From positions 1,054,001 to 1,118,000 of the forward strand of contig CAWUHX010000031.1 in NCBI GenBank assembly GCA_963922205.1: a stretch of 64,000 nucleotides of DNA. The letters run 5' to 3'. The notes beneath the pieces were generated by a model, which saw nothing but the letters and a program-made list of their open reading frames with translations, was not told the origin of the DNA and did no database searches. Each line of letters opens with the position of its first letter. Position 1 is the stretch's first letter. This document shows positions 23,685-40,630 of this stretch, in pieces. This DNA comes from Romanomermis culicivorax. Its lineage: Eukaryota; Nematoda; Enoplea; Mermithida; Mermithidae. The translations under genes were made by a program, and so were the position numbers.

Positions 23685-23920
23685 CATACCCGTACTTGGA
23701 GGGGGGTTGGGGGGGACCCCCCCCCCCAACTTGGCCAACCCTGTACCCAAAATCATTTCCCCCCAAACCCCCTCCCCAGTTGGGAAAAAATTAAAAAAAT
23801 TTTCAAAAAAGTGCATGTTTTTTGGCCTTTTTTGGGAGAAATTTCGACTTTTTCCTCCCCCCCCCCAAAATGTCGGATTTACCCCCCCCCCCCCCACTGG
23901 ACGGAGGTCTTACAGGTATG
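23685..23920 (-). mobile_element. hAT-like MITE, family A, inverted copy
   Basis: Same family as 9819-10016, in opposite orientation; ends CATACCCGTACTTGG and TACAGGTATG. Target duplication TTATGTAT/TTAAGTAT (7 of 8). It contains C runs up to 15 bases, which produce long spurious proline/glycine frames. Confidence 0.85.
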
Positions 23921-24708
23921 TTAAGTATATTTAAGAACAACCTAAGGACTAGAGAAAATAAAGTAGAAAATTATGTAAATTTTCGATCGAAACATTGTAC
24001 CATTATCAACGATATCGGTTTTTCTATTTGAATCAATTAAACAAAAAAGTAAGAATTCCAGTCTGACTGAATTAGCAGAGAATATTCAGAATTTCTTTTC
24101 ACTCACCAGTCTTGAAAGCCTATAAAGTTTGCTGCAACAATACTAATTCACTGTTCGGAGAGGAATCATTCGCGTTCGGGTCAAATGTACGAATAGGAAA
24201 TATTATTCATTGACTCGGCGCGAAGCGCCGAAAATTTTTTACATTTTCAGCCCCTAAAACGTCTAAAAATCAAGGAAATTTTATGTTTGACCCGCCAAAA
24301 TTTTTGTGCCAACTGGCAAAAACGCTCAAAATATTTTGTGCTATTCTAAATTTTTTTGTGCCAAAAACCATGTTTTGGAACAAAAAACACTCTTAGCATG
24401 CCCCATATAAAGAATAGTGCTTTTTTTGGCAGAGATTTCGAGTTGCCATGCTTTGGACCAATTGAAAATTTGATCAAGATCATTTTGAAGAATTTTACAG
24501 TGTGTGGAGGTGTCGAAAATTTTGACATCATCATTAAAAAGATAAACATCAGATTTTATTTAGTGTATCTGGATTCTGGAAGGTCGCGTGTTGGACCTCC
24601 TTACACCAAAATGCATCTTTTCAATATGAAAACCCCAAATTTTTCTTCCACATTTGTGGAAAGACCTCAAAATTTTTTTTCACATTCCAGATTTTTTTCC
24701 ACATTCAT

Positions 24709-24947
24709 CATACCTGTAAGACCTCCGACCAGTTGGGGGGGGGGGGGGTAAATCCGAAATTTTGGGGGGGGGGGGTAGGAAAAAGTCGAAATTTTTCCCA
24801 AAAAAGGCCAAAAAACATACACTTTTTGGCAAATTTTTTTAATTTTTTCCCAACTGGGGGGGGGGTTGGGGGGGGAAATGATTTTGGGTATAGGGTTGGC
24901 CGAGTTGGGGGGGTCCCCCCCCCAACCCCATCCCAAGTACAGGTATG
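24709..24947 (+). mobile_element. hAT-like MITE, family A, copy 3
   Basis: Perfect termini CATACCTGTA/TACAGGTATG. Target duplication ACATTCAT/ACATTCGT (7 of 8). Four G runs of 8-12 bases. It lies about 450 bp upstream of the pinin-like gene. Confidence 0.88.
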
Positions 24948-25392
24948 ACATTCGTAGCGCAAATGTGGAAAAAAACAGTGCGCGAAAGAGCTTTTCTTTT
25001 CATCCGGATGTTTTATACAGTAGTACTGGTTTCGAGTTCGACTAAAGCTGTGACTGTAATTACTTACAGAACTGACAAAATTCACCTTGACGCAGATCGT
25101 TTTCTACATACCATAATTACATACATTCTGTAAAATCACCGAAGCTTCGTCTTTCCTGACATCTAACTGAGGAAATATTCTTGATTTCTTTCCTTATCTA
25201 TTTGATCTGTTGTACTTGTAGATCATAAGTATAGGACGAGACATGAATTGTTACTGTATTCGTCGAAAAACTGATGCATTTTTTCTTGCCTCACTCTGTC
25301 AGAATTTTTAAGTTATTTGAATTTAACCACTCATAACAGAATTCGGATCCCTGATATCACCTTGGATTCGTTTCTTGGTATATCCTTCGAGT

Positions 25393-26676
25393 ATGACTGA
25401 AATAATAATCTCCAACGGAGGTTTGAGCGCCAAATTGGACGAAGATTTGATTAAAGCTCGAGAATCGCTACGCTCAATCGAAGAAGGCATTCGTTCGTTG
25501 AATGGTCGTCCGGAATTCAACAACAATTTCAGTAATAATTATAATAATAACCAAATGATGAGTTCCACTCGCTATCGACAATCGACAAATCTACCCATTA
25601 AACGTCGGTTAGGTTCGTCAAATTTTAACAACGTCGGCGACGATTATTTCCAAAATTCTTTCGACCTACCACCCGCCGCCAAACAAAAATTCGTCGACGA
25701 TTCATTTTCGGACTTTAAGCCGTCTATAGCCTCGAGCGTCAACGTTACCGTCAAAGAAGTGAAAAGTCGCGAAAGAGCCATTGCCGAACTCAAGGAGACG
25801 GAGAAAACGGACAATCGTACGCGTAATCGACGCATGTTCGGACTTTTGTTAGGAACGTTGGAAAAATTTAAAAAGGAGGAGGACGGTAAACAACATTTCC
25901 GCGATCAGGAACGTCGCCAAAAAGAGATCGATCAGAAATTAGAGGACGCTAAACGTAAAGATCAAATGGATTTACGGCGGGAAAGGGAAAAATTGATAGA
26001 AAAGAAACGTAAGCAGCAACAAGAATTGCGACTTTTACAACGAAAAAAGGCCGTCATCAGCGCAACCGAAAATCAAATCCAACTCCTACATCGTTTTCAA
26101 AATTTTATTCAAACGCAGACTAAACCGCCGATATTTTTCATGCCCGCCAAGCACACTATTCGTACAATCGAATTGCAGAAAAAGTCGCAAAAACGTCTCG
26201 AAGAAATGATAAAGCGTAAAAAAGAAGAATTGGAGCAAGAATTGAAGTCGATAGATAGTAATTTACGCAATGAATCGGGTGACGAAAACGACGAGAATTT
26301 GGATGACGTCGACGAAATTTTAGTCAATCGAAATTTAAAATCTACGATTAACGACCCCAGTAAAGGAATCAAAGGAGATACTTCGCGCAAAAACGGCGAA
26401 AATGTCGATGACGATAAAGATAAGTTATTCGCCGAAGCTCATAAAGAACTTTTAACCGAGGCGGCTAAAATCGACGACGTTTTAAATTTGATGCCCGGCG
26501 GTGGCGACGATGACGACGTGGAGGACGAATTGGACGGAAAGAAAGTTGAAAAAGGTGAGATTACGATGATGACGACGAATGAAACAAAATCCGAGAAAAA
26601 TATCGCAGCGGAGGCCAGTCAAGAAGTTGTCGAAAAACCAAAGTCGATAACTGAAGAAGAGCAAGTTGAAGGTTAA
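25393..26676 (+). CDS. PNN: Pinin (PNN) orthologue, single coding exon
   Basis: The 427-aa product starts with the pinin N-terminal coiled-coil motif (ARESLRSIEEGIRSLNGR, residues 22-39). It then has the pinin/SDK/memA core (RNRRMFGLLLGTLEKFK at 144-160), a long charged coiled coil (about 160-225), the conserved TQTKPPIFFMPAKH segment (231-244) and an acidic C-terminus. Vertebrate pinin is a nuclear speckle protein of the exon-junction/ASAP-PSAP splicing network and also occurs at desmosomes. The copy is shorter than the vertebrate protein, lacking the RS-rich tail. The ATG at 25393 was preferred over upstream non-ATG codons because the family motif begins just after. It has no intron within the CDS; an acceptor-like CAG at 25338-25340 suggests a 5' UTR intron. 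A functional gene is favoured over a retrocopy because the frame is intact and no poly(A) tract follows. Confidence 0.93.
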   Translation: MTEIIISNGGLSAKLDEDLIKARESLRSIEEGIRSLNGRPEFNNNFSNNYNNNQMMSSTRYRQSTNLPIKRRLGSSNFNNVGDDYFQNSFDLPPAAKQKFVDDSFSDFKPSIASSVNVTVKEVKSRERAIAELKETEKTDNRTRNRRMFGLLLGTLEKFKKEEDGKQHFRDQERRQKEIDQKLEDAKRKDQMDLRREREKLIEKKRKQQQELRLLQRKKAVISATENQIQLLHRFQNFIQTQTKPPIFFMPAKHTIRTIELQKKSQKRLEEMIKRKKEELEQELKSIDSNLRNESGDENDENLDDVDEILVNRNLKSTINDPSKGIKGDTSRKNGENVDDDKDKLFAEAHKELLTEAAKIDDVLNLMPGGGDDDDVEDELDGKKVEKGEITMMTTNETKSEKNIAAEASQEVVEKPKSITEEEQVEG

Positions 26677-28347: not shown

Positions 28348-28389
28348 GTTATTGTACATGGCTCGGAACATGACGACTCTCGGGGCTAT

Positions 28390-28977
28390 TGTCGTGCGTG
28401 AGAAAGTAGAAGCGTAGACGACGGAACGCAGATGAGAATTTAAGCTGTATAGCTCAACGATTTATCGCGCGTTTTAGAAGAGACGTACGGAACGTAGAAG
28501 AGCGTGCGGAACGCTGTAGACGAAACACTCGGAGTGTTTTACGGAATTAATGCAACGATAGTCAAACGCAGGAGATTGACGGGCTCGTAGAGAGCGCTGT
28601 GTCAATTTTATCCAGGGATCTTCGCTCAGGTCGTCAAAGGTTTTCGGATGCCGAAAACTCGCGCCGTATATTCGTAACCGCTTAGGAGTTTCACTCGCTC
28701 ACTCAAACTATTTTCCAAATAGTTTGACTCAACTTAAAACACACTTTTCACACAATTTACTAATGTACAAAGCCGCCACACACTTTTTCAGACAAACGCC
28801 AAAACACAACCGTTTGGCTACAGTACAACGCAAGAACTAGTGAAAACACTTTCATAATTTCTTCACGTTATAGCCACGCCTCTTCAGTGGTCTCGTCGCG
28901 ATCTTTCCAATTCAAACTTGCCGATCTTTTTCGCAAACGACACGAGCTTTACAAATACATCAAATCGCTCCACAACA
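28390..28977 (-). repeat. 3' LTR of the large retrotransposon (588 bp)
   Basis: It starts TGTCGTGCGTGAG and ends CGCTCCACAACA on the + strand, with TGT/ACA termini. It pairs base for base with 40039-40626 apart from about 11 substitutions and no indels. Confidence 0.96.
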
Positions 28978-28991
28978 CTCCTCCCCCTTTC
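28978..28991 (-). promoter_or_regulatory. Polypurine tract
   Basis: On the minus strand GAAAGGGGGAGGAG directly precedes the 3' LTR. This is the expected plus-strand primer site and confirms the direction of the element. Confidence 0.88.
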
Positions 28992-29324: not shown

Positions 29325-30344
29325 TCATTTCGGCGGAAATCCGCGACCTTTAGGCAAAACTTTGACCGGGGTTTTGCTCGCTTTCAGAATACCCGGCGGA
29401 GGCATCTGTATCGATTGACTCGTGGTCGGTGCTCGCGGGGCCAAAGCTCGCTGCGCGGCTCCAAGCGAGGTTCTCACTCCAACCATCGACGGTTGAGTTG
29501 TCGCTGTCATTGCCATAGTGATGATCGGGGCCGGTGTCATTTGGTACTTTGGCGGTACGGCCGCTTTTGCCATGGCTTGGGCGTCTTTCTTTTTCTTTTC
29601 TTCGGCTCGCTTGTCCATTTCGATTTGATACTCGCGATGTATATCTCGGATGATACCCTTTCTTTCTTCAGTTGCCGGATAATTCGGGGCTCGCGTGTCG
29701 GTGAGGCATTGCAAGATGTAGCGTAGAGCCATCGAATACGAATTATCGGTAGTTTTGTAGTCGTAGGCTTGTCTGGCGTGGAAGAGGAACAGCGTGAGCT
29801 GTGTTATCACGATTGCGTTTTCAGCGCCGTAATACTTATAGTAATCGCACATCCAACTTAGAAGAACTGCAGTGAGTTCTTCTGTGCAATGCGGATCTCG
29901 TCGCAAATATCGCGCTTGAAAATAGTCAGGAAAGTCCTGAGCTATTTGTTGCGAAGCCGCGGTGGCTTGACGTAAAATTACGGAATCGAAATCCAAATGG
30001 GCTCGATTGAAGTAATTAATGATAATTACGTCATTGGTCGTTCTCGGTTGGATTTGAGCCGTAATAGGTGCTGTAGGTACGCTAGGGTACCGTTCTTCCG
30101 GCGGTGTACAATGTCTACCGTGTCGTCGATGTGCAACTTTGTATTCTCGGACGGTTCGTTGTGACTTTTGTTGTTCGCTGGCCGTTTCCGCTTGCTGCGA
30201 CGTTGTTGGTTCGTCGATCATTGGTTCGGAGCCAGCCGTCGGAGGCTGTTGGCTCTCTAACTGTTCTTTTTGCAATTGATCGCGTTTCAAGGCGCTAGCC
30301 CATTCAATTCTTTTTTGTGGATCTTTTGATTCGCTAGGATGTTC
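29325..30344 (-). CDS. Accessory ORF C: helical core with basic, Ala/Pro-rich tail
   Basis: About 339 codons that continue the frame of the ORF upstream after its TGA (30347-30345); the first residues after that codon (EHPSESKDPQKRIEWASAL) look like ordinary coding sequence. The N-terminal third is Gln/Glu/Ser-rich. The middle (from NDVIIINYFNRAHLDFD, about 200 residues) is predicted helical with several conserved-looking Trp, Tyr and Cys. The tail is Lys/Glu-rich and then Pro/Ala-rich. No domain was recognised. A separate start codon is not evident (the first in-frame ATG is internal), so it is read either as the C-terminus of a longer protein with the preceding ORF or as a product of stop readthrough. 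It ends 334 bp before the PPT. Confidence 0.6.
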   Translation of the reverse strand, partial: EHPSESKDPQKRIEWASALKRDQLQKEQLESQQPPTAGSEPMIDEPTTSQQAETASEQQKSQRTVREYKVAHRRHGRHCTPPEERYPSVPTAPITAQIQPRTTNDVIIINYFNRAHLDFDSVILRQATAASQQIAQDFPDYFQARYLRRDPHCTEELTAVLLSWMCDYYKYYGAENAIVITQLTLFLFHARQAYDYKTTDNSYSMALRYILQCLTDTRAPNYPATEERKGIIRDIHREYQIEMDKRAEEKKKKDAQAMAKAAVPPKYQMTPAPIITMAMTATTQPSMVGVRTSLGAAQRALAPRAPTTSQSIQMPPPGILKASKTPVKVLPKGRGFPPK

Positions 30345-31898
30345 TCATCTATAATCGCGATCTCGGTGAAATTTTCTAGGACGCTCGTTCGACGCGTATT
30401 CACCATGTCGATATTTTCGACTGTCATAATCATCGCTTTCCTTGCGAGCAGTAGACCGCGAGGGTCGTTCTCGTGACCGTGATCCGGTTTCTTTTCGTTC
30501 TCTACTACGAGTGTCTTCTCGTGATTCGCGACGTTTTTTGGATGGAGGCACGTAATTAGGATCTTCTGGGTGCGTGTCCAGATAATCCTGTATTGTGCGC
30601 AGCTGTTTATCGATAGCATTTCGTCTGCGAAACAGTGAAAACTGATACGCTCTGACGTTGCGAATGGGTACGCCGTGTTCATCGCACAATCGGTCGTCTT
30701 TTACCTCCAAAACTGGAGTGGCTGTTTCGGTACTGATCGGAGTAGAGGTGTCTTCCTCGTTTTTCTTTTGTATTCGATATCGCGTAGGTATGATTTTCGG
30801 AGGTACCATTTTCGTTTCGTCTTCCTCTACGTCTTCCATTCGCGAAACATCATACATCGATGAGGTTTTTACCAACGAGGCTACCTCTTGTATGTTTCGT
30901 TTCTTTATTTCCTCCGATTCCAATTCGAATGTACTGCTCGACAGGTTTTTGGATAGCGGAGTGAACGAGGACGTTGTTTTAGTCATCGTTATAGGTGCAG
31001 TAGTATCAGCTGTGGATACGTCTTCTTCTTCGCTTTCGAGTTGTATGACGTCGGATTCGGACGGTAGTTCCCTTTTTACCGTGAACGATTCTTTGGCGGT
31101 TTGTTTGAGCAACGAATCGACGGCCATTGCCGTTTCCGCATCGAATTCGGTATCCGCGGTGGATTGTGTAGGAGCCTGTGTAGGCGTTTTTGTGGGACTT
31201 TCTCCCGACAATATGGCGGTCGGTATTACGGGCAAATTCGAACTCATTGTTAGAGTATGAATCGGCGGAAAGCAAATGAGTTGTTCGCATTTTCTCGACG
31301 TTAAAATCGGCGAATTGTAAGAAAAGTAGTAATAGGGGTTTTCCCTATACTTCTTTTTCGTTACTAGATCGGTTTCGTTGGAGACAGGAAAACTGTCGTT
31401 TTTGAATATGATTTGTCGCATAAAATATTGATTCGCGTATATCGGTCGTTTACTGTCGCTGCGATTCTTTTCGTTGTAGGGCAAGCGACTAGTCCATTCC
31501 ATTAGTTCGAATTCGAACGTGCCGTCTCGTTTCACCCAATTTTGCTCGCAAATAAGATCTATGTCGATACTGTCACTTTTCGATAACAGTTTCGAGATCT
31601 CATTTTTGAGAATGGCTCGCAATTCCATTTCGGAATGTGGGGAGCAGACGTGAGCGACTAGCGGCATAGTTCCGCGAACAGCATTCATCCATTGATGATG
31701 GTTCGGAACCGAGTAGAGCGGCGTTAGAGCCGGCTTTTCGGCGATCTGATGGTCGCATTTTATTTCGTAGATAGGCCACGTTTCGGGAGGACCGTAGGTA
31801 GTGAACGGATCGTTTACGACTAGTTCGAAATTTATTTGTTTCGCTTCGTCGCTCGTCACCATGTTTTGGTCTATTTCGGAAAGAAATAGCAAAGACAT
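30345..31898 (-). CDS. Accessory ORF B: acidic to RS/RE-rich protein
   Basis: 517 codons from ATG 31898 to TGA 30345. An in-frame TAG just upstream supports this ATG as a real start, unless a frameshift from the overlapping exonuclease frame feeds into it. Residues 1-220 are globular and rich in aromatic residues. Residues 230-370 are Ser/Thr/Glu-rich and low in complexity. The last 80 residues are a basic Arg-Glu-Ser/Arg-Ser run ([19 protein letters not shown]) resembling RS domains or RNA-binding tails. No known domain was found. It overlaps the exonuclease frame by 299 bases in a +1 relation. The TGA end is followed by continuing sense sequence in the same frame. RNA binding or nuclear targeting is inference from composition only. 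Confidence 0.7.
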
Positions 31899-33494
31899 CG
31901 TGATGGATGCTAACTACGTCATTGGAGCGTAAAGCTCGCTCTATAACTCTGGCGAATTCAGCGGCGTCGTCATACGGTTCAGTTTTTCCGTCGTCGGTCA
32001 ATGAGGACGTGTTGTTCTTGCTACCTTTTATCGTCGGTAGTTTTGTCGGATGCATTTTCAATCCGAGCGGTTTAGTGGAGTGCTCCACGTTTACGTGATT
32101 ATACGTACAGTATCGCATGTTCGGGACGTTATAGTCGTAGTATATGATTCGATTTAACGCCAGGATTTCGTCGCGCATGATCGCATGCAGCATACTTTTC
32201 GAGAGCGTCGGATCTACGACACCGAAAGCGCCCTTTTCGTCGCCTTCGCGATCGACGTTTGCGTTATCATACAAATTTTGCGTAGCGATGTGTATGTATT
32301 CGGGCGGCAAGAAATCGTGCGGGAAGATTTCTATACTATCGTAGACGCTGTCTACGAAGCCGTAGCGCCCGTACGCTAAAAACATTAGTATCGGATAGTA
32401 CGCGTCCAGAATCGAATACGTCAACACTTGATCGTCGGGTTTGCCTGCTTGGGCGATGCGATCGTTCGCTTGCGGAAAATACAACGTGTAGCGTTCTACG
32501 TCTAGCGCGAACGCGTCGGCAACGATTCCTTTCAATTTTTTATTTTCGGGGCACAAGCCGATCAGACGAGCTCCCACTTTTCGGGTGAGCGTTCGATATT
32601 TTCTAGTATAATCTGGACGTCGACCAGTATACTAGGCGCGAGCACGTTAGAGTGCGTTTTTCGAGCGTCGGATGAGTAAAACTCTCGTCCGTGCATGTCT
32701 TTGAGACATTTCCAATCGTCGGCTTGATCGAATCCGATTACGATCGTTTTAGGGGCCGACACGAACTCGTAGAAGGCCGTCCAATCCTCGGGTGTCGCCG
32801 CTAAGGCGTCGAACATTATAGTGTATCCAGTGGGAAAACCCAGCTGGACAAACCCAGCGACGTGGGTCGCGTTCTGGTTCACTATATTCATCTTCGTTTT
32901 CTTGTGTATGTATAGCTGAGTAGTCAAGATTTTTTCGACGTCAAATCCGACTAGCACGTGGCCGCGGAAGTTCGGTTTTGCGTATGCCGATAGGGCGCCT
33001 TTCAACTCTCCACTCTCAACGTATTGAGGGTCGCGTAGCACGTTGAGCGGTCTTGCATATACCGTCTCGAACCAACGTTCGAATTCCGTGATTCGGATCA
33101 TTCTTTTGATATTGTATTCTAAAAAATATCATAAAATTTCGATTAATTTCTGTGAGATTTAGTTTCGCATGGAAACGTCACTCATTCGAATCGCGGCGTG
33201 CAAATCTTCTAGCGAAGTTACCGCGACTCCCATTTTCTTATCGACGGATCGATACTTTACTCTTCTCAGGGGAAGTGAAACCCGGAGTTTCTTTTTAGAG
33301 ACTTTAGTCTATATGGCAGTGCAGAACTTACCATCAGCAAAGAAAAATCTGTCGTCTTGACGGTACTGCTTTTTCTGATACGCCACGTATCGGTCTTGGT
33401 TGTTAAAAGCTTTTCGAAATATCGGCGGCGGATTTATTAGCGACGTTGATATCGCCGATTCTTGCGACGTCATTGCCTCCGATTCACTCGCCAT
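31899..33494 (-). CDS. Accessory gene A: DEDDy 3'-5' exonuclease-like, spliced
   Basis: Exon 1 is 33494-33332 (ATG, 54 codons plus one base). A consensus donor GTAAGT at 33331 and acceptor TTTTTTAG at 33120-33119 define a 213-bp intron. Exon 2 starts at 33118 and is open to 32562. The domain then continues in the -1 frame, open from about 32580 to 31600; its sense content ends near 31899. Exonuclease motifs: Exo I GFDVEK (catalytic D and E codons at 32942 and 32936); Exo [13 protein letters not shown] (D near 32720); Exo III YSILDA (Tyr 32418, Asp 32406), the Y-x3-D spacing of DEDDy enzymes such as WRN and EXD proteins. These use two metals to remove 3' nucleotides. The switch of frame inside the fold, at an A4 run near 32582, is either a one-base loss in this copy or programmed slippage. 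Confidence 0.8.
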
Positions 33495-33984
33495 CGCTTT
33501 TCTGTATCAACTTTGATTTTGAACAATTTCAAATTCGATGCGACCGTTCTCTATCGTTTCAATTTTGCGAAATGAAAAATATAAGCCAAACTATCTTGCT
33601 AAAAGATGAAGGTGTAAAGTGGAAAGTTGTTAAACCACGAATTTAAATTTTCATGCACATGGCGAAAATTGTAAAGTTCAGATTGGGTGGGACCAGAGGA
33701 AGATTTTCCTACAGCGCGCGCTTTCTATTCAATCTCTCTTCTGCGCAACTACTTATGGAAGGTCAATTTATTCGAAATGGACGTGAATAAGTACAAAATC
33801 ACATAATAATATCACACGCATTCCTTTCATTCATTCCACATAGAATCTGTATGAGCGCGTTTTGCGCGTTTTTAAATATTCGAAAATTTGTACTCATCGC
33901 TTTGCTCAAAATTATTAAATAGTTAGACTTTATTTAACAAAATTAAAAATTAGTGTTAGTTGAAATATATCAAAATTATTAATT
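33495..33984 (-). other. Untranslated gap between pol and the accessory genes
   Basis: 490 bp without a sustained minus-strand frame between the Pol stop and the ATG of accessory gene A. It would hold a promoter or the acceptor of a spliced subgenomic RNA. A polypyrimidine-AG candidate was not singled out. Confidence 0.4.
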
Positions 33985-36900
33985 TTAATGTTTACAAATT
34001 TTTGGAGGACCGTTGTCTTCCGTTTCTAAGATTGCCGATGCCGTGCGAGGCATGTATGGCTTTACGCGAGAAAGTGAGACTTTCTGGGATTGTCCGGGAC
34101 AATCTAAACTATCGATCGTTACGACGTTTTTCGAAATTTCAGAGTTTTCGACCACTATGAAGGGTCCGATATAGTCTTTTTCGATTTTAGTCGCTTTTTT
34201 GTTGTTAACCAACAGTATGAGATCGTTTAGATCGTATTTCTGCGCTTTCGCTTTCTTATCGAAATATCGTTTATGTGATTCGGACGCGTTTTTTAAGTTT
34301 TCGAAAACTTCGTTATATAGTGTTAGTTGCGCTTGCGTGAAGATATACTGATACGCATCGTAGTTTAGCGGTAACGTTAGACTTTTCGCGCAGTCGAAAT
34401 CTATAGCGATTCTAGGTTCATACCCTCGCAACAGTCGAAATGGAGAAAAGTGAGTAGCTGTGTGAGGAACAGCGTTATAGGCGAATGTCGCGAAAGGTAG
34501 ATATCGTTCCCAATTGTCGGGATCTTCAGCGGTGAATTTTTTTAGTTGCGAAATCAACGTTTGATTGAATCTTTCGACCATTCCATTACATTGCGGATGA
34601 TACGCAGTGGTATTGATTTTCTGAACTTTTAGAAGCTTCGCGATGTCTTTCATCAAGTTTGAAGTGAATCCTGAACCCTGATCTGATAGAAGATGTTTCA
34701 GGCTGCCATGAACCAAAACTACGTTGTTTACGAAACTTTCAACTATTGTGGCTGCTTTTTGATCTGGAATCAAATGAGCGCTTACCCATTTCGTGAAGTA
34801 GTCTTGAAATACGATGACGTATGATCTTTTCTCACCCAAAGGGGATATGTTTACTATGTCGGTCGCGACGATTTCAAATGGGTATTTCGGTTGAATCGGC
34901 ATCAAAGGAGGAGGTTTCGGCAACTGAGAAGTTGTTTGTTGACATGTTTTACATGTTTTGATCCACTTTATTATCGATTCTTCCATTTTCGGCCACCAGA
35001 AATGCTGACGAATCATCGCTGTAGTGCGTCTGTGACCTTGATGGCTTAAAATCTTTGCGCCGTGAAATTGATACAAAACACTTTCAATCAGAGTAGTTGG
35101 AACTACTATCGCGGAAGCTGTGTTAGCTTGTTTCGATGTTCGGTACACTATCTCGTTTTCGGTATGGAAAGCAGATGAAATCGTAGAGATTTGGTTTTGT
35201 TCTAAGACTTTTATCAACTTTGCGATGTACGGATCTTTTCTTTGAGCTTCTCTGATTTCTTCCGGCGATTCTATAGTTACTAGCCGTTTCTCAGGCTGTT
35301 GGAAATCTTCTTCAAACTTCGGCACTTTATTTCTTTCTTCTTTTTGCGTCATTGACCTTGTTATAGCTGCAGCGACAGTCTTTTTTCCTTCACGAAACGT
35401 CGGTCTGAATATTTCATTTGTTACTTCTTCGCTAGTCTTTGGCTTTACTTTAGCGCGAGGTTCATTTCGTGATAGAAAATCAGCGCAAGCATTTTCTTTA
35501 CCTTTCACATATTCAACGCGATAGTCGTAGTCTTGCAATTTTATTGCGAAGTTCTGAAGTCGCGAATTTCGATGTTTTTCTTCTTTGATCCATTGCAAAG
35601 GTTTATGATCAGTTCTGACCGTTACTTTTTGTCCATAGACATAGTGTCTGTACCACCGGAAAGCTTCTACGATTGCTAAGCATTCGCGCTCAGTCGTACT
35701 GTATCGGGTTTCTACGTCAGACAGAACTCTACTATTATACGCGATGACCCATTGATCAGTTTCGTTTTCTTGATACAAAATCGCACCAATAGCAGTTGTG
35801 CTAGCATCAGTTTGAATGATGAATTTCGATTTTTCGTCGTTATAGACGGGATATCGTAAAAAAGGAGTCGAGGTTAGAGATGTTTTAATCTCGTTAAACG
35901 CTGTACGATGTTCTTCGCTTATCTCATATTTCGCATTTTTTCGTAGAAGTTGATAGAGCGGTCGCGAGAGAGTGGCAAGATTCGGTATGAATCGTCTACA
36001 CCATTGGACTAGGCCCAAAAAACTTTGAAGATCTTTGACTGTTGTTGGCATTTCATAGTTTACGATTGCAGAGACCTTTTCGGGATCAGGCGAGATTCCA
36101 TTTTCGCTTAGCAAGTGACCAAGAAACTTTACTTGTTTCGGTACGAAATCGCATTTATCTGGTCTTAGCGTTAAATTCGCGTCACGGAGAGCATCAAAGA
36201 TCAGTTGGATATGTGCTAGATGATCGTTATACGTTTGCGAAAAGACTATGATATCGTCGATATAGACCAAACAGATTTTCCAGATGTATGGATGCAGGAT
36301 CCGTTCCATTAATCTTTGAAATTCAGCGGGAGCATTTTTCAAACCAAAAGGTAGAACTTTGAATCGAAATAAGCCTTCTTGACTGACGAAAGTAGTTTTA
36401 TCGCGTGAAGCGATGTCTAAAGGGATTTGCCAATACCCTGCTTTCAAGTCTAGAGTTGAGAAAAATCTTGCGTTGCCTAGAGCATCTAGATAGTCATCGA
36501 TTCTCGGGATCGGAAACTTATCGCTAGGAGTAACTTCATTTATACCTCTATAGTCGACTACGGGTCGCCAACTTCCATCTTTTTTTGTTACCAGAAACAT
36601 AGGCGCAGCCCACGGTGATCGCGAAGGTTCGATGAGGCCTTTTTCCAGCATTTCTTGGATTTTCTGACGAACCATTGGTCTTTGCTCAATCGGCCCGCGA
36701 TAGTAGTGTTTCGCGACTAGTTTTGCATCACCGGTGTCTATAGAGACCGTTAACTCGTGAGTGAGAGTAGGTTGATCTCCAGGGAGACTGAAAACATCAC
36801 GATATTGCTTGAAGACTTCGATAGCGATTTTTCTATCTTCATCGTCGATATTCGACTTTTCCGTCATTTTTTCGAGAGCGAGTTGAAGTTTTTCTTCTTC

Positions 36901-38334
36901 CGACATAGTTGACTGATCTTTAATCAACGTGGCTGGCTCATAGTCTTCTTCATGATGGCTTAGCGACGCGACGGTCATTTTCGATTCTTCGAGTTTGAAT
37001 TTAACTTCAGCGATGAGCTGGTTAGGTTCTAGATGGATGCCATTCGCACTATTATTTACGAATAATAGTGGACATTTGCCCTCAGTTATGTTGATTATCG
37101 CAAGTTCGATCGGATATTCGCAGTTTTCTTTTCCGAAGTTCACGGGTTGAACTATGACGCTTTTGAAGCTTTCGTTTGTGAAAGGGAAGACTTTCCCGTT
37201 TACCCAAGTCTGACAATTCGGTTCTACGTAGCATGACGAGATATTCAAAATCGGTAGTGATCTGTCGATTTTTACGATTTGCGTTTGACTTTGTCCCGTA
37301 GAAGTATTTGAAAATACTTCGTCATAGGGCGCTTTTTCGATCGGTTTCAAAACTAGGTTTAGTTCTTGCTGAACGTCTCCGATTCTGATGAAATTTTCGC
37401 GAAAGTTTATTACGGCTCGAACGCTCGGATGCACTAGGAAATCGGTTCCTAGAAGGCATTGCTCTCCTGTAGTAGGCAGTATCCAGCATCGTACTAGATG
37501 CGTTCCGAAAGATGAACTGATTTTGAAGATTATCGGACCTCTGGCATCGACGATAGCACTGTCGGCTACTTTTATCTGCGCGGATGTTTCCAAAGTATCA
37601 TAGTCAATCCCCAAAGAGCGTTGAGCTAGACATGAGGAAATGACTGAACACTGAGCACCGGTATCGATTAAGGCTTTCGTTTTGGTTTTTCCGATTTCGG
37701 CATCGATATGAAAAGCACGAGTAGGAGCGTATAAGCTCAGAAGTTTGATATCTTTTTGCGAACATTCTTCGATTCGACACACGCTAGATCTCGCGATCCA
37801 CGGTTCAGTAGGTTTTTCGATTGTGAAATCAGTGATTCCGGGAGCGACGAAGAAGTTTGTAGCTTTAGAAGCTTCTGTCGGTTCAAGCATATTAGCTGTA
37901 CTAGTCGTCGGTTTCATCGGAACGAAAGGTTTAGGTGAGTTGGACACCGTTTTGGTTTCTGATAGCAAAACTTGTTGCAAAGATTTCGGAGGAGTTAGCT
38001 GAGTCTGTATAGACTGTGAGTTGTTCATCGGATAGTAGTAGTGCTTTTTGATTATCTTTTCTTGTCGGGATTCGGAATCGCAGAGAGAAATGTTTGCAAC
38101 ATCTCTCTGATAGTTTCGATTATCCCGATTGAAAAATCGGTTATTTCGGTCAAAATTTTGATTCTGATTGAGCGTGTAGTTACGCGTATTTTGTTGAAAA
38201 CGAGGACGCCAATTATGGTTATTTTGCCATTGATGATTCGGTTGCTGTTGCCGAGGCTGAGAAGCCTGTGGTTTCAATTGATAGCATTCGGAGCTGTCGT
38301 GTTTACATTGACCATGATAGGTGCAATATTTCAC
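33985..38334 (-). CDS. pol: Pol polyprotein, intact (zinc knuckle, PR, RT, RNase H, IN)
   Basis: 1449 codons without interruption. From the N-terminus: a Cys/His knuckle ([14 protein letters not shown], residues 4-17), an Asn/Gln/Arg-rich linker, aspartic protease with DTGA at 224-227, reverse transcriptase with STLDLKAGY (Asp 629) and YIDD (691-694), RNase H with TDAS at 842-845, and integrase. The integrase has an HHCC finger (His 1091-1101, Cys 1128/1131) and a DD35E triad (Asp 1159, Asp 1218, Glu 1254). All expected catalytic residues are present, so this copy may be active. The frame is the same as that of Gag; the reading frame is open from the TGA at 38358-38356, and the listed start is simply the first possible start codon (GTG). 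Expression therefore probably needs readthrough, unless the TGA is a mutation of an Arg codon. Confidence 0.96.
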
Positions 38335-38355
38335 GGGTCGTTCACGTGACTGATT

Positions 38356-39963
38356 TCATTGGAAATTTCGATTCTGAGAGAAATCCCGTATAGGAATGTT
38401 TTCTCTATTCCGAAAGTTCGGAATTGTACCGCGATCGAATCGCGATCTTCGATTTTCGAAATTATTAGCGTTTTGCGAATTTTCTCGGATTCCGAACTTT
38501 TCTAGGACTCGTTTTATGCTTTCTTCCAATTCTTTCGTTTTCGTTAGAGTCGAATTTTCTTGAAACCTCACGCTGTTTCGCTGTCTAGAGTCGTCTCTGT
38601 TTCGGGGTTGAGAGTTATCTCTGAAACGAGGTTTCGAATCATCTCTGAAGCGCGATTGAGCTGGTTGCTCTTCCGACCGATTTTCGAGTGTATTAACCAG
38701 TATAGGTTGTTCTACTCTAACAGTTGACTGTTTATTCGCTCGCTGAATTTTCTGGACTTTCGCGACGGCTATAGCTAAGTCAGTGATCGTTTCTAGAGTA
38801 CTCGCGTCAATCGAGACTCTGTAATTTTCCGGCATTTTCCAAAGAAAAGTTGTGATAACCTTTCTATGGCGATACTGAGCGCTTCTGTCATAGTACAGTA
38901 GATGTACGTAGGTACTGATTCGATTTAAGAAAGCTGACGGATCTTCGGTTTCATAAGGAGCGATAGACTGGAGCTCGCATTGGAGCGTATCTTGGTCACA
39001 ATTCGGTGCATTCATACACATCAAAATCTGTTTCGCTTCATCGTAGGATCGGACATCTCTTATGGTGTTCAGGGCACCATCGCAAGTCAAGCGACGCAAA
39101 GTGTGAAGTTTCACATACTCAGACGCATCAAGGCCGAACTCGTTTTCGAGTGCAATGAAGAATTTCAAAACTTGTTGATTTCGGGTCGAATTATCTAGTT
39201 TTTGCGGCGCTATCTTTTTACAGATAGTTTTAATTCTCGTTTCGTCATCGGCGAAAGATCTATGCACCTGAGTTGGTGGGATAGACGGAAAGTTTATCTG
39301 AGAGTTTAGCGCGTTTAGCGCGTTAGAGCGATCAAACATTTGCGTTGGGATGATCAGATCATCGTCATCGTCGATTATACTACGAAAACTAAGTTGACTT
39401 TTTCGATCGCTAGTGACGTTTTTCAGTTTAGTCGATTTCTGAGACTGAGCGTAAGAGCTTGTAGGTCTCGCGATATTTTCGATTTCGGGAACGTTCGGTT
39501 TCAATAGCTCTTCTTTTTGAGCTCGCATCGCTTCGATTTCGGTTTTAAACTCATCGAGAAGTTTTCGCTGTTGAGTCGCGATAGTTACGATTTCGCTTAA
39601 CGCGTTAGTAGCGTCGCCACGAAAATTTATCATTTCGGCATCGCATTTTTGCATTACGTCGATATACGCGTCATTATCGAAGATTTTTCGAGGATCGGTA
39701 TCCTTCGGTTTCGGTTTTAGAAAGTTGAATTTTCGATGTTCGACGATTTTCGGAGATAGAGATCGCGAGGTTTTTCGCGTTTTTAGCGGAGCGGACGTTT
39801 CTGGTAGATCGAAATTACGCTTATCTGCTTTGTAGAGAAGCGGTAGATTCGCGTTTTCGCAGTCGAATTTTTCGATTTCTAGATTATCAGGATTCGCTAG
39901 TTTCTTGTAGAAACCTTTTTCGTAACCGAGCGCAGTAGAGCGACGCGTGCGGTTTTCTTCCAT
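38356..39963 (-). CDS. gag: Gag polyprotein
   Basis: 535 codons from ATG 39963, ending in TGA. It has a charged N-terminus, a coiled-coil-like segment around residues 110-155, a capsid-like helical region at about 240-420 (with FFIALENEFG and FLNRISTYVHLL), then an Arg/Asp/Asn-rich nucleocapsid-like stretch with short RFRDDSKP-type repeats. The Cys/His knuckle that would complete nucleocapsid is just beyond the TGA, at the start of the Pol frame. That placement argues that Gag and Pol were, or still are, joined by translation through this codon. The 5' leader from the PBS is about 50 bases. Confidence 0.9.
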   Translation of the reverse strand: MEENRTRRSTALGYEKGFYKKLANPDNLEIEKFDCENANLPLLYKADKRNFDLPETSAPLKTRKTSRSLSPKIVEHRKFNFLKPKPKDTDPRKIFDNDAYIDVMQKCDAEMINFRGDATNALSEIVTIATQQRKLLDEFKTEIEAMRAQKEELLKPNVPEIENIARPTSSYAQSQKSTKLKNVTSDRKSQLSFRSIIDDDDDLIIPTQMFDRSNALNALNSQINFPSIPPTQVHRSFADDETRIKTICKKIAPQKLDNSTRNQQVLKFFIALENEFGLDASEYVKLHTLRRLTCDGALNTIRDVRSYDEAKQILMCMNAPNCDQDTLQCELQSIAPYETEDPSAFLNRISTYVHLLYYDRSAQYRHRKVITTFLWKMPENYRVSIDASTLETITDLAIAVAKVQKIQRANKQSTVRVEQPILVNTLENRSEEQPAQSRFRDDSKPRFRDNSQPRNRDDSRQRNSVRFQENSTLTKTKELEESIKRVLEKFGIRENSQNANNFENRRSRFDRGTIPNFRNRENIPIRDFSQNRNFQ

Positions 39964-40015
39964 TTTTCGGATTTTCGAATTTTCGCAAATTTCGGCGTTT
40001 CCTCAACCTTTAGAC

Positions 40016-40033
40016 GAGCTGGTACGGTCACCA
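40016..40033 (-). promoter_or_regulatory. Primer binding site
   Basis: Five bases inside the 5' LTR, the minus strand reads TGGTGACCGTACCAGCTC. It starts with TGG, complementary to a tRNA CCA end. The tRNA was not identified. Confidence 0.7.
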
Positions 40034-40038
40034 AATTA

Positions 40039-40626
40039 TGTCGTGCGTGAGAAAGTAGAAGCGTAGACGACGGAACACAGATGAGAATTTAAGCTGTGTA
40101 GCTCGACGATTTATCGCGCGTTTTAGAAGAGACGTACGGAACGTAGAAGAGCGTGCGGAATGCTGTAGACGAAACACTCGGAGTGTTTTACGGAATTAAC
40201 GCAACGATAGTCGAACGCAGGAGATTGACGGGCTCGTAGAGAGCGCTGTGTCAATTTTATCCAGGGATCTTCGCTCAGGTCGTCAAAGGTTTTTGGATGC
40301 CGAAAACTCGCGCCATATATTCGTAACCGCTTAGGAGTTTCACTCGCTCACTCAAACTATTTTCCAAATAGTTTGACTCAACTTAAAACACACTTTTCAC
40401 ACAATTTACTAATGTACAAAGCCGCCACACACTTTTTCAGACAAACGCCAAAACACAACCGTTTGGCTACAGTACAACGCAAGAACTAGTGAAAACACTT
40501 TCATAATTTCTTCACGTTATAGCCACGCCTCTTCGGTGGTCTCGTCGCGATCTTTCCAATTCAAACTTGCCGATCTTTTTCGCAAACGACACGAGCTGTA
40601 CAAATACGTCAAATCGCTCCACAACA
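40039..40626 (-). repeat. 5' LTR of the large retrotransposon (588 bp)
   Basis: Same length as the copy at 28390-28977, with about 11 single-base differences. It drives transcription toward lower coordinates; a TATA-like GAATATATGG occurs on the minus strand near 40315. Confidence 0.96.
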
Positions 40627-40630
40627 CTAT

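Follow-up and report, generated by a model that had tools for sequence, protein, structure and literature searches.

A Ty3/gypsy-type LTR retrotransposon lineage of the nematode Romanomermis culicivorax with a putatively spliced, exonuclease-like third gene behind pol

The DNA examined in this study is a stretch of 64,000 nucleotides from Romanomermis culicivorax, hereafter the window, and it contains a retrotransposon of which we are highly confident that it represents a Ty3/gypsy LTR lineage whose third gene, putatively spliced, takes the position usual for env. As judged from a chain of homology leading from the family of the window (family A) through a second family of the same genome (family C) to the Pfam model PF01612, the front part of this third gene, ORF3, is a relative of the DEDDy 3'-5' exonucleases. 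As to its function, we tentatively favor the reading that ORF3 faces the host, trimming RNA 3' ends and thereby blunting Dicer-siRNA silencing, and we regard this as a fair possibility that falls short of an even chance. R. culicivorax belongs to the mermithid nematodes (order Mermithida) and parasitizes mosquito larvae; its v2 assembly comprises 359.1 Mb in 595 scaffolds (PMC10879605).

The element and the structure of ORF3

The whole element is 12.2 kb long, lies on the minus strand, to which all of its coordinates refer, and holds gag, pol and the putatively spliced ORF3 in this order. Its two LTRs were delimited by alignment to each other and by direct reading: the 5' LTR in the sense of the element, with TG..CA ends, occupies 40039-40626, and the 3' LTR occupies 28390-28977. 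Each is 588 bp long, and in an alignment of 590 bp they are 98.1% identical, with 11 differences (K2P 0.019). The flanks carry a target-site duplication, ATAG, at 40627-40630 on the 5' side and 28386-28389 on the 3' side. A candidate primer binding site, TGGTGACCG, which starts with TGG, is located just inside the 5' LTR (40025-40033), and a polypurine tract, GAAAGGGGGAGGAG, stands directly before the 3' LTR (28978-28991).

The gag frame (38359-40002) encodes 548 aa and is cut by a TGA at 38358-38356. That is, the TGA separates gag from pol in the window copy, while in many other copies the two form a single frame of about 2005 aa. The pol frame (33985-38355) matched the Pfam models gag-asp_proteas, RVT_1, RT_RNaseH, Integrase_H2C2 and rve, giving the order protease, RT, RNase H and integrase. 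This domain order and these models assign the element to the LTR retrotransposons of Ty3/gypsy type. The first-pass annotation of this DNA had proposed such an element and had placed the exonuclease motifs between its two LTRs after pol; the LTR pair, the ATAG duplication and the pol frame bear out both proposals.

Elsewhere in the genome, at G000:C36:280459 and G000:C36:292113, two matches lie 11654 bases apart, compared to a spacing of 11649 from LTR to LTR in the window. This pair is possibly two tandem internal regions with one common LTR.

ORF3 begins about 490 bp behind pol. Its exon 1 (33332-33494) consists of 54 codons plus 1 nt and begins with MASESEAM. The intron (33119-33331) is of phase 1 and runs from GTAAGT to TTTTTTAG, so that the acceptor AG is at 33120-33119 and the first base of exon 2 is 33118. 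Exon 2 extends over 29325-33118, and in open copies it measures 1273 aa from stop to stop. When the window copy and 43 other copies were aligned, the donor GT was found in all 44 sequences, and 43 of them have the acceptor AG. In pairs of copies, moreover, the third codon positions of both exons were several times more diverged than the first and second positions. These features suggest that ORF3 is spliced in vivo.

In the window copy, exon 2 is broken by two frame changes and one stop. Its first piece ends at 32562, before the motif YSILDA, which is read in the frame 32631-31600; the second frame change and the stop, a TGA at 30347-30345, come after this frame. The first-pass annotation had taken 32406-33118 as the gene. 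The motifs that it read there are real, but the frame changes before YSILDA and ORF3 is far larger, extending over 33494-33332 and 33118-29325. Among the matches listed for ORF3, 150 of 2786 candidate copies were scored. A stop-free frame of at least 1270 aa was present in 30 of these 150 and missing from the other 120.

The predicted product has roughly 1327 aa. A short leader from exon 1 is followed by a DEDDy exonuclease-like domain and another conserved domain, and then by a stretch that looks disordered and a basic, RS-like region. In the related family B, the C terminus is RGG-rich. The position of ORF3 after pol and its two exons resemble those of an env gene, so we considered whether it encodes a membrane or entry protein. 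In exon 2 of family A, the mean Kyte-Doolittle value of no 19-residue window reached 1.6 (maximum 1.42), the N-terminus is polar, and the homology is with exonucleases. The tail of family B does contain two 19-residue windows above 1.6, with a maximum of 1.79. Taken comprehensively, we consider an env equivalent very improbable. Because family A has no membrane-like segment and has an RS-like region, and because family B has an RGG-rich tail, ORF3 probably works on RNA.

Pieces of ORF3 are also present in protein databases. A protein search with the first part of ORF3 (query A1) gave 49 matches, P0002-P0050, and all 49 are labelled R. culicivorax; a search with query A8 gave five, four from R. 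culicivorax and one ENA record. No match was returned in the protein search with full ORF3. Two of the matched proteins are named '3'-5' exonuclease domain-containing protein' in UniProt and one 'NurA domain-containing protein'. The last 283 residues of the UniRef entry P0002 are identical to the open L042 frame. Thus, pieces of a transposon are apparently listed as host proteins in these 49 entries, of which P0002 is the one whose place in the genome was checked (it is L042).

The exonuclease-like domain and its relatives in the genome

The domain lies approximately at 32350-32985. In family A numbering, Exo I is formed by D63 (32942-32940) and E65 (32936-32934) within GFDVEK (32934-32942), Exo II by D138 (32715-32717), the second D of ADDWKCL, which was placed by alignment with the Exo II aspartate of the other groups, and Exo III by Y239 (32418-32416) and D243 (32406-32404) within YSILDA (32404-32418). 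The order is therefore D-x-E, D and Y-x3-D, and the three motifs occur on the minus strand in the succession that had been noticed at first. Of 45 family A copies, 41 retain all five residues; D138 is replaced by N in four of the 45. Inside family A, conservation at the catalytic residues does not exceed that of much of the domain, in which 82 of 206 columns are fully conserved.

We searched the genome with PF01612 and obtained 119 matches at E <=10, many of them in multicopy frames. The 24 places that were fetched were grouped by reading into families B (9; L053 and kin) and C (5; L070 and kin) and group D (10; L051, L052 and kin). In an alignment of 12 sequences from groups A-D, the near-invariant columns were D59, E61, G95, D131, L196 and D240 (L053 numbering). 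That is, they were the four acids D-E-D-D plus one G and one L, and Exo I and the D243 of Exo III belong to them. In an alignment of 14 sequences, three of the four acids were nearly invariant and the Exo II aspartate fell below 90%.

The chain of homology consists of the following comparisons. Family A and family B are 27% identical over 294 aa (E 2e-29; hhalign E 7e-18), family A and family C are 21% identical over 238 aa (E 1e-10), and families B and C match with E 1.8e-14. For each of these three pairs, none of 1000 shuffles gave a match as good. The family C protein L070 matched PF01612 with 33.3 bits against a cut-off of 23.6, and this was its only Pfam match. Family C pieces of L067 and L071 scored 19.2 and 21.0 bits, which is under the cut-off, and another piece of L071 had no Pfam match. 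Family B was also under the cut-off (19.7 bits, E 8e-4). Two group D proteins scored 43.7 and 52.3 bits, but the profile comparison of A with D was not significant (probability 1.4%), that of B with D was weak (35%), and BLAST of A against D found nothing real. We therefore left group D out of the chain.

For the window family itself, direct searches were negative. PF01612 was matched neither by the window pieces nor by three open copies or ten UniRef relatives; weak, unrelated models such as MoaC (0.07-0.13) appeared instead. A PDB search with family A gave no match. The profile of A and B had Psb28 as its sole PDB match (0.0015-0.0023), which we took as spurious, and the profile of A, B and C found two unrelated chains (0.47-0.53) and no DEDDy chain. 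The profile of groups A-D found 13 PDB sequences at E <=10, headed by a mut-7 homolog (5.8e-6) and WRN (1.6e-4) and including EXD2 (0.014). A group D protein alone found the mut-7 homolog (8e-4) and WRN (0.0035). Since the profiles without group D found no DEDDy structure, it is group D that drives the PDB matches. The idea of a DEDDy exonuclease gene, as first proposed, thus holds by way of family C, while a direct Pfam or PDB match for the window family is missing.

The AlphaFold (AF2) model of the domain was poor (pLDDT 41.8, pTM 0.35), and Foldseek with this low-confidence model returned nothing at E <=0.001. Among the best 50 of its 138 rows, none of them significant, 30 were EXD2 (8), WRN (4), Egalitarian (4) and family A DNA polymerases (14). 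All of these proteins contain the exonuclease fold.

The four Egalitarian rows, which concern Egalitarian-BicD, have a bearing on another possibility. The exonuclease fold of ORF3 might bind RNA without cutting it, as in Egalitarian or EXD1, and the large tail might assemble or localize the RNP of the element. The RS-like region of family A and the RGG-rich tail of family B would suit such an adaptor, and inactive relatives, EXD1 and Maelstrom, are known from the discussion of the rotifer report PMC5408684. An adaptor would not explain well why the five catalytic residues are kept in most family A copies, or why the acidic quartet is nearly invariant over groups A-D in the 12-sequence alignment (three of the four in the 14-sequence alignment). 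We therefore think that a purely non-catalytic role is unlikely, and that ORF3 may act as an exonuclease.

Pol sequences were also found upstream of the related exonuclease frames. Upstream of the family B exonuclease L053 there are RNase H and integrase sequences 42-48% identical to the window pol, and upstream of the family C exonuclease L070 there are RT and integrase pieces (L082) 34-50% identical to it. An ORF3 with a DEDDy-type domain thus follows pol in each of the families A, B and C. Pol pieces (L083) of 35-38% identity precede a further PF01612 match, at C20:529620. The frame upstream of the group D frame L052 contains CCHC and RNase H, with an H2C2 match just under the cut-off, and its identity to the window pol is 24%. 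In the piece L055 (G000:C69:274000-277600), which lies ahead of an exonuclease frame of group D, there is an open frame with a CCHC knuckle and RNase H, with H2C2 just under the Pfam cut-off and no RT match in the piece read; it is possibly a derived or non-autonomous element family.

In family B, exon 1 ends in ..RQNNRYFLVDG before the donor GTAAGC, and the acceptor TTTTTTAG is followed by ACCACAATATCC. The position and phase of this intron are the same as in family A. The two families also have a middle domain in common (E 2e-6, 23% over 222 columns). Barring exchange between families, the common splice position and phase and the middle domain indicate that ORF3 predates the split of A and B. 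At least two pol lineages of the genome probably inherited ORF3 from a common ancestor.

Purifying selection on ORF3 and a subfamily that lacks it

In order to clarify whether ORF3 is maintained, we considered the omega values between copies. With copy L031 as the common partner, omega was 0.08-0.15 in 19 of 20 comparisons (19 copies and the window), which are not independent because all of them share L031. In the remaining comparison, L031-L041, the synonymous sites were saturated and omega was undefined. For the exonuclease part, eight listed comparisons with L031 gave an omega of 0.04-0.14, and in two more, with L041 and L042, saturation left omega undefined; five pairs that do not involve L031 gave 0.05-0.30. 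Several dead copies are included and raise omega, so the constraint on live copies may if anything be stronger. An omega of about 0.1 indicates that ORF3 is a maintained accessory gene and not a one-off capture.

Decay at CpG was examined as a source of the low omega and was rejected: when CpG-prone sites were removed, the L031-L043 pair still differed at 56 of 177 four-fold sites as compared to 46 of 814 zero-fold sites. Over the whole of exon 2 in copies L031-L050, CpG-prone four-fold sites were more divergent than other four-fold sites (in L031-L038, 35 of 266 vs 12 of 272). Such faster divergence is expected if copies of the element are DNA-methylated in R. culicivorax.

The intron (33119-33331) and the noncoding stretch 33495-33984 showed fewer differences between copies than the third codon positions did; in L031-L043 the intron differed at 20 of 194 positions, and the third positions of exon 2 at 43%. 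This low divergence may reflect regulatory constraint or a lower CpG content.

If ORF3 were a host fragment that had been captured once and carried along neutrally, broken copies such as that of the window and the 120 scored copies that are not open would be no surprise. Against this, omega is about 0.1 at dS values up to more than 1 and is robust to CpG, the splice position is common with family B at 27% identity, and 30 scored copies are still open. A neutral passenger is hardly credible on this evidence. We thus rejected the one-off capture and the neutral passenger by selection, unless the codon alignment is wrong, and the env equivalent by hydropathy and homology. The motifs noticed at first are accordingly more than chance readings: matches occur in the 150 scored copies, other copies of the genome conserve the catalytic residues, and the constraint is strong. 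The word 'passenger', which the first-pass annotation had used, undersells a gene with a conserved two-exon structure, a product of this size, purifying selection and a place behind pol in three families.

We also asked which elements carry ORF3, starting from the pol ends. In this search 150 of 5623 candidates were scored; since this list and that of ORF3 hold 150 candidates each (for ORF3, of 2786), a missing listed match is no proof of absence. An exonuclease match is listed 1.2-1.6 kb downstream of 101 of the 107 listed pol ends with at least 90% identity. One of the six others, C102, was fetched, and ORF3 was present there in a frame-broken form. Among the 43 listed pol ends with 84-89% identity, 14 have a listed exonuclease match no more than 3.5 kb away, the distance being 1.2-1.6 kb in 12 cases. 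From the 29 unpaired ends we fetched three, and all three lacked an ORF3 match between pol and the LTR. In these elements, pol is followed by about 0.74-0.77 kb, a polypurine tract, which thus precedes the LTR here too, and an LTR 93% like that of the window. Their gag-pol frames are open, with about 2008 aa. According to the first-pass annotation, copies lacking the frame would point to a one-off capture or an assembly artefact; elements with close pol ends do carry ORF3, but this sister subfamily lacks it. As family B has ORF3, loss in the sister subfamily is the simpler reading.

These relatives with an open gag-pol suggest that ORF3 is seemingly not needed in cis. This bears on the possibility that ORF3 serves replication, either by trimming genomic RNA, the primer remnant or cDNA 3' ends before integration, or by proofreading reverse transcription. 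DEDDy enzymes process the 3' ends of RNA and single-stranded DNA, as described in PMC5408684, ORF3 is found behind pol in three families, and the strong purifying selection is explained by a replication nuclease as well as by action on host silencing. A replication nuclease accounts less well for the subfamily without ORF3, although supply in trans is possible, and we regard it as a possible but doubtful explanation. A host-facing function that acts in trans fits the sister subfamily better than an essential step of replication does, since attack on siRNAs would act in trans and let relatives without ORF3 persist.

Possible function of ORF3 and comparison with known systems

We speculate that the host-facing action named at the outset may proceed as follows. 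A spliced subgenomic RNA would encode the ORF3 protein, which would be held on RNA by its tail. The exonuclease would then shorten host silencing RNAs, or their precursor RNA, from the 3' end. Such trimming might blunt the RdRP-Dicer siRNAs and DNA methylation that are proposed to replace piRNAs in the defence of clade I nematodes. The exonuclease probably helps the element, and its substrate may be small RNA, as proposed here, or RNA or cDNA of the element.

The background of the host is compatible with this proposal. According to PMC4323106, R. culicivorax is without PRG-1/Piwi and shows neither piRNAs nor triphosphorylated small RNAs of the 22G type, HENN-1 is absent from clades other than V, an RRF-3-type RdRP is retained in clade I, and the DNA-methylation machinery is present in R. 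culicivorax; the Dicer siRNAs against transposons and the methylated LTR elements described there were shown in Trichinella and not in R. culicivorax. The 3' ends of siRNAs are thus probably unprotected in R. culicivorax, and a 3'-5' exonuclease could attack them. As a distant parallel, an arenavirus exonuclease counters host immunity (PMC7968707).

In a wider form, the proposal would be that, in gypsy lineages of clade I nematodes, the env position came to hold a suppressor dedicated to Dicer-siRNA silencing. This suppressor would be a spliced, RNA-binding 3'-5' exonuclease kept under selection and exploited in trans by sisters without ORF3, in hosts that no longer have piRNAs or 2'-O-methylated small-RNA 3' ends. 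We consider this general form rather doubtful. The system has many copies, strong selection, families at 27% identity, a natural control without ORF3 and a host without piRNAs, and these together make a nuclease-based escape from silencing testable.

Exonuclease genes of this kind have been described in other elements. The first-pass annotation knew of no described element with such a passenger, which does not stand, because DEDDy ORF3s were reported in the Juno and Vesta LTR elements and the Athena Terminons of bdelloid rotifers (Rodriguez, Kenefick and Arkhipova 2017, PMC5408684). As stated there, these were acquired at least twice, and a role in 3'-end processing or silencing was suggested; the report left open whether the exonuclease ORFs benefit the retrotransposons. 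In PMC6338049 and PMC6431247, DEDDy ORF3 is counted among the accessory domains of LTR elements. By the published description, Juno and Vesta resemble the present element in that an LTR element carries gag, pol and then a DEDDy-type ORF3, in that ORF3 is present in some lineages and absent from relatives, and in that the domain is common to several retroelement groups of one genome. The R. culicivorax elements belong to another phylum, and their ORF3 differs in its two exons, its length of about 1327 aa and its further conserved domains.

Compared to MUT-7/EXD3, WRN, EXD2 and RNase D, which PF01612 represents, ORF3 shares Exo I, II and III with Y-x3-D. It is much diverged from them, family A alone being below detection, and it has a long, element-specific C-terminal part. 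Gypsy-type elements of Drosophila have a spliced env as the third gene after pol. ORF3 is similar to it in being a third gene after pol with what seems to be a spliced message, but ORF3 is nuclease-like and has no clear membrane segment, whereas the Drosophila product is a membrane glycoprotein. In the open-licence PMC literature searched, we recognized no report of a DEDDy ORF in an LTR element of a nematode. As far as that literature goes, the nematode host, the spliced two-exon gene of about 1.3 kaa, the evidence of selection and the sister subfamily without ORF3 are new.

Two further features were observed in the window. On the plus strand, 25327-26676 is a frame of 449 aa, which we take to read like pinin and which is probably part of a host gene. 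At 23756-24877 there is an inverted repeat, the arms of which are 111 nt long, 93% complementary and 900 nt apart, with runs of C or G in them.
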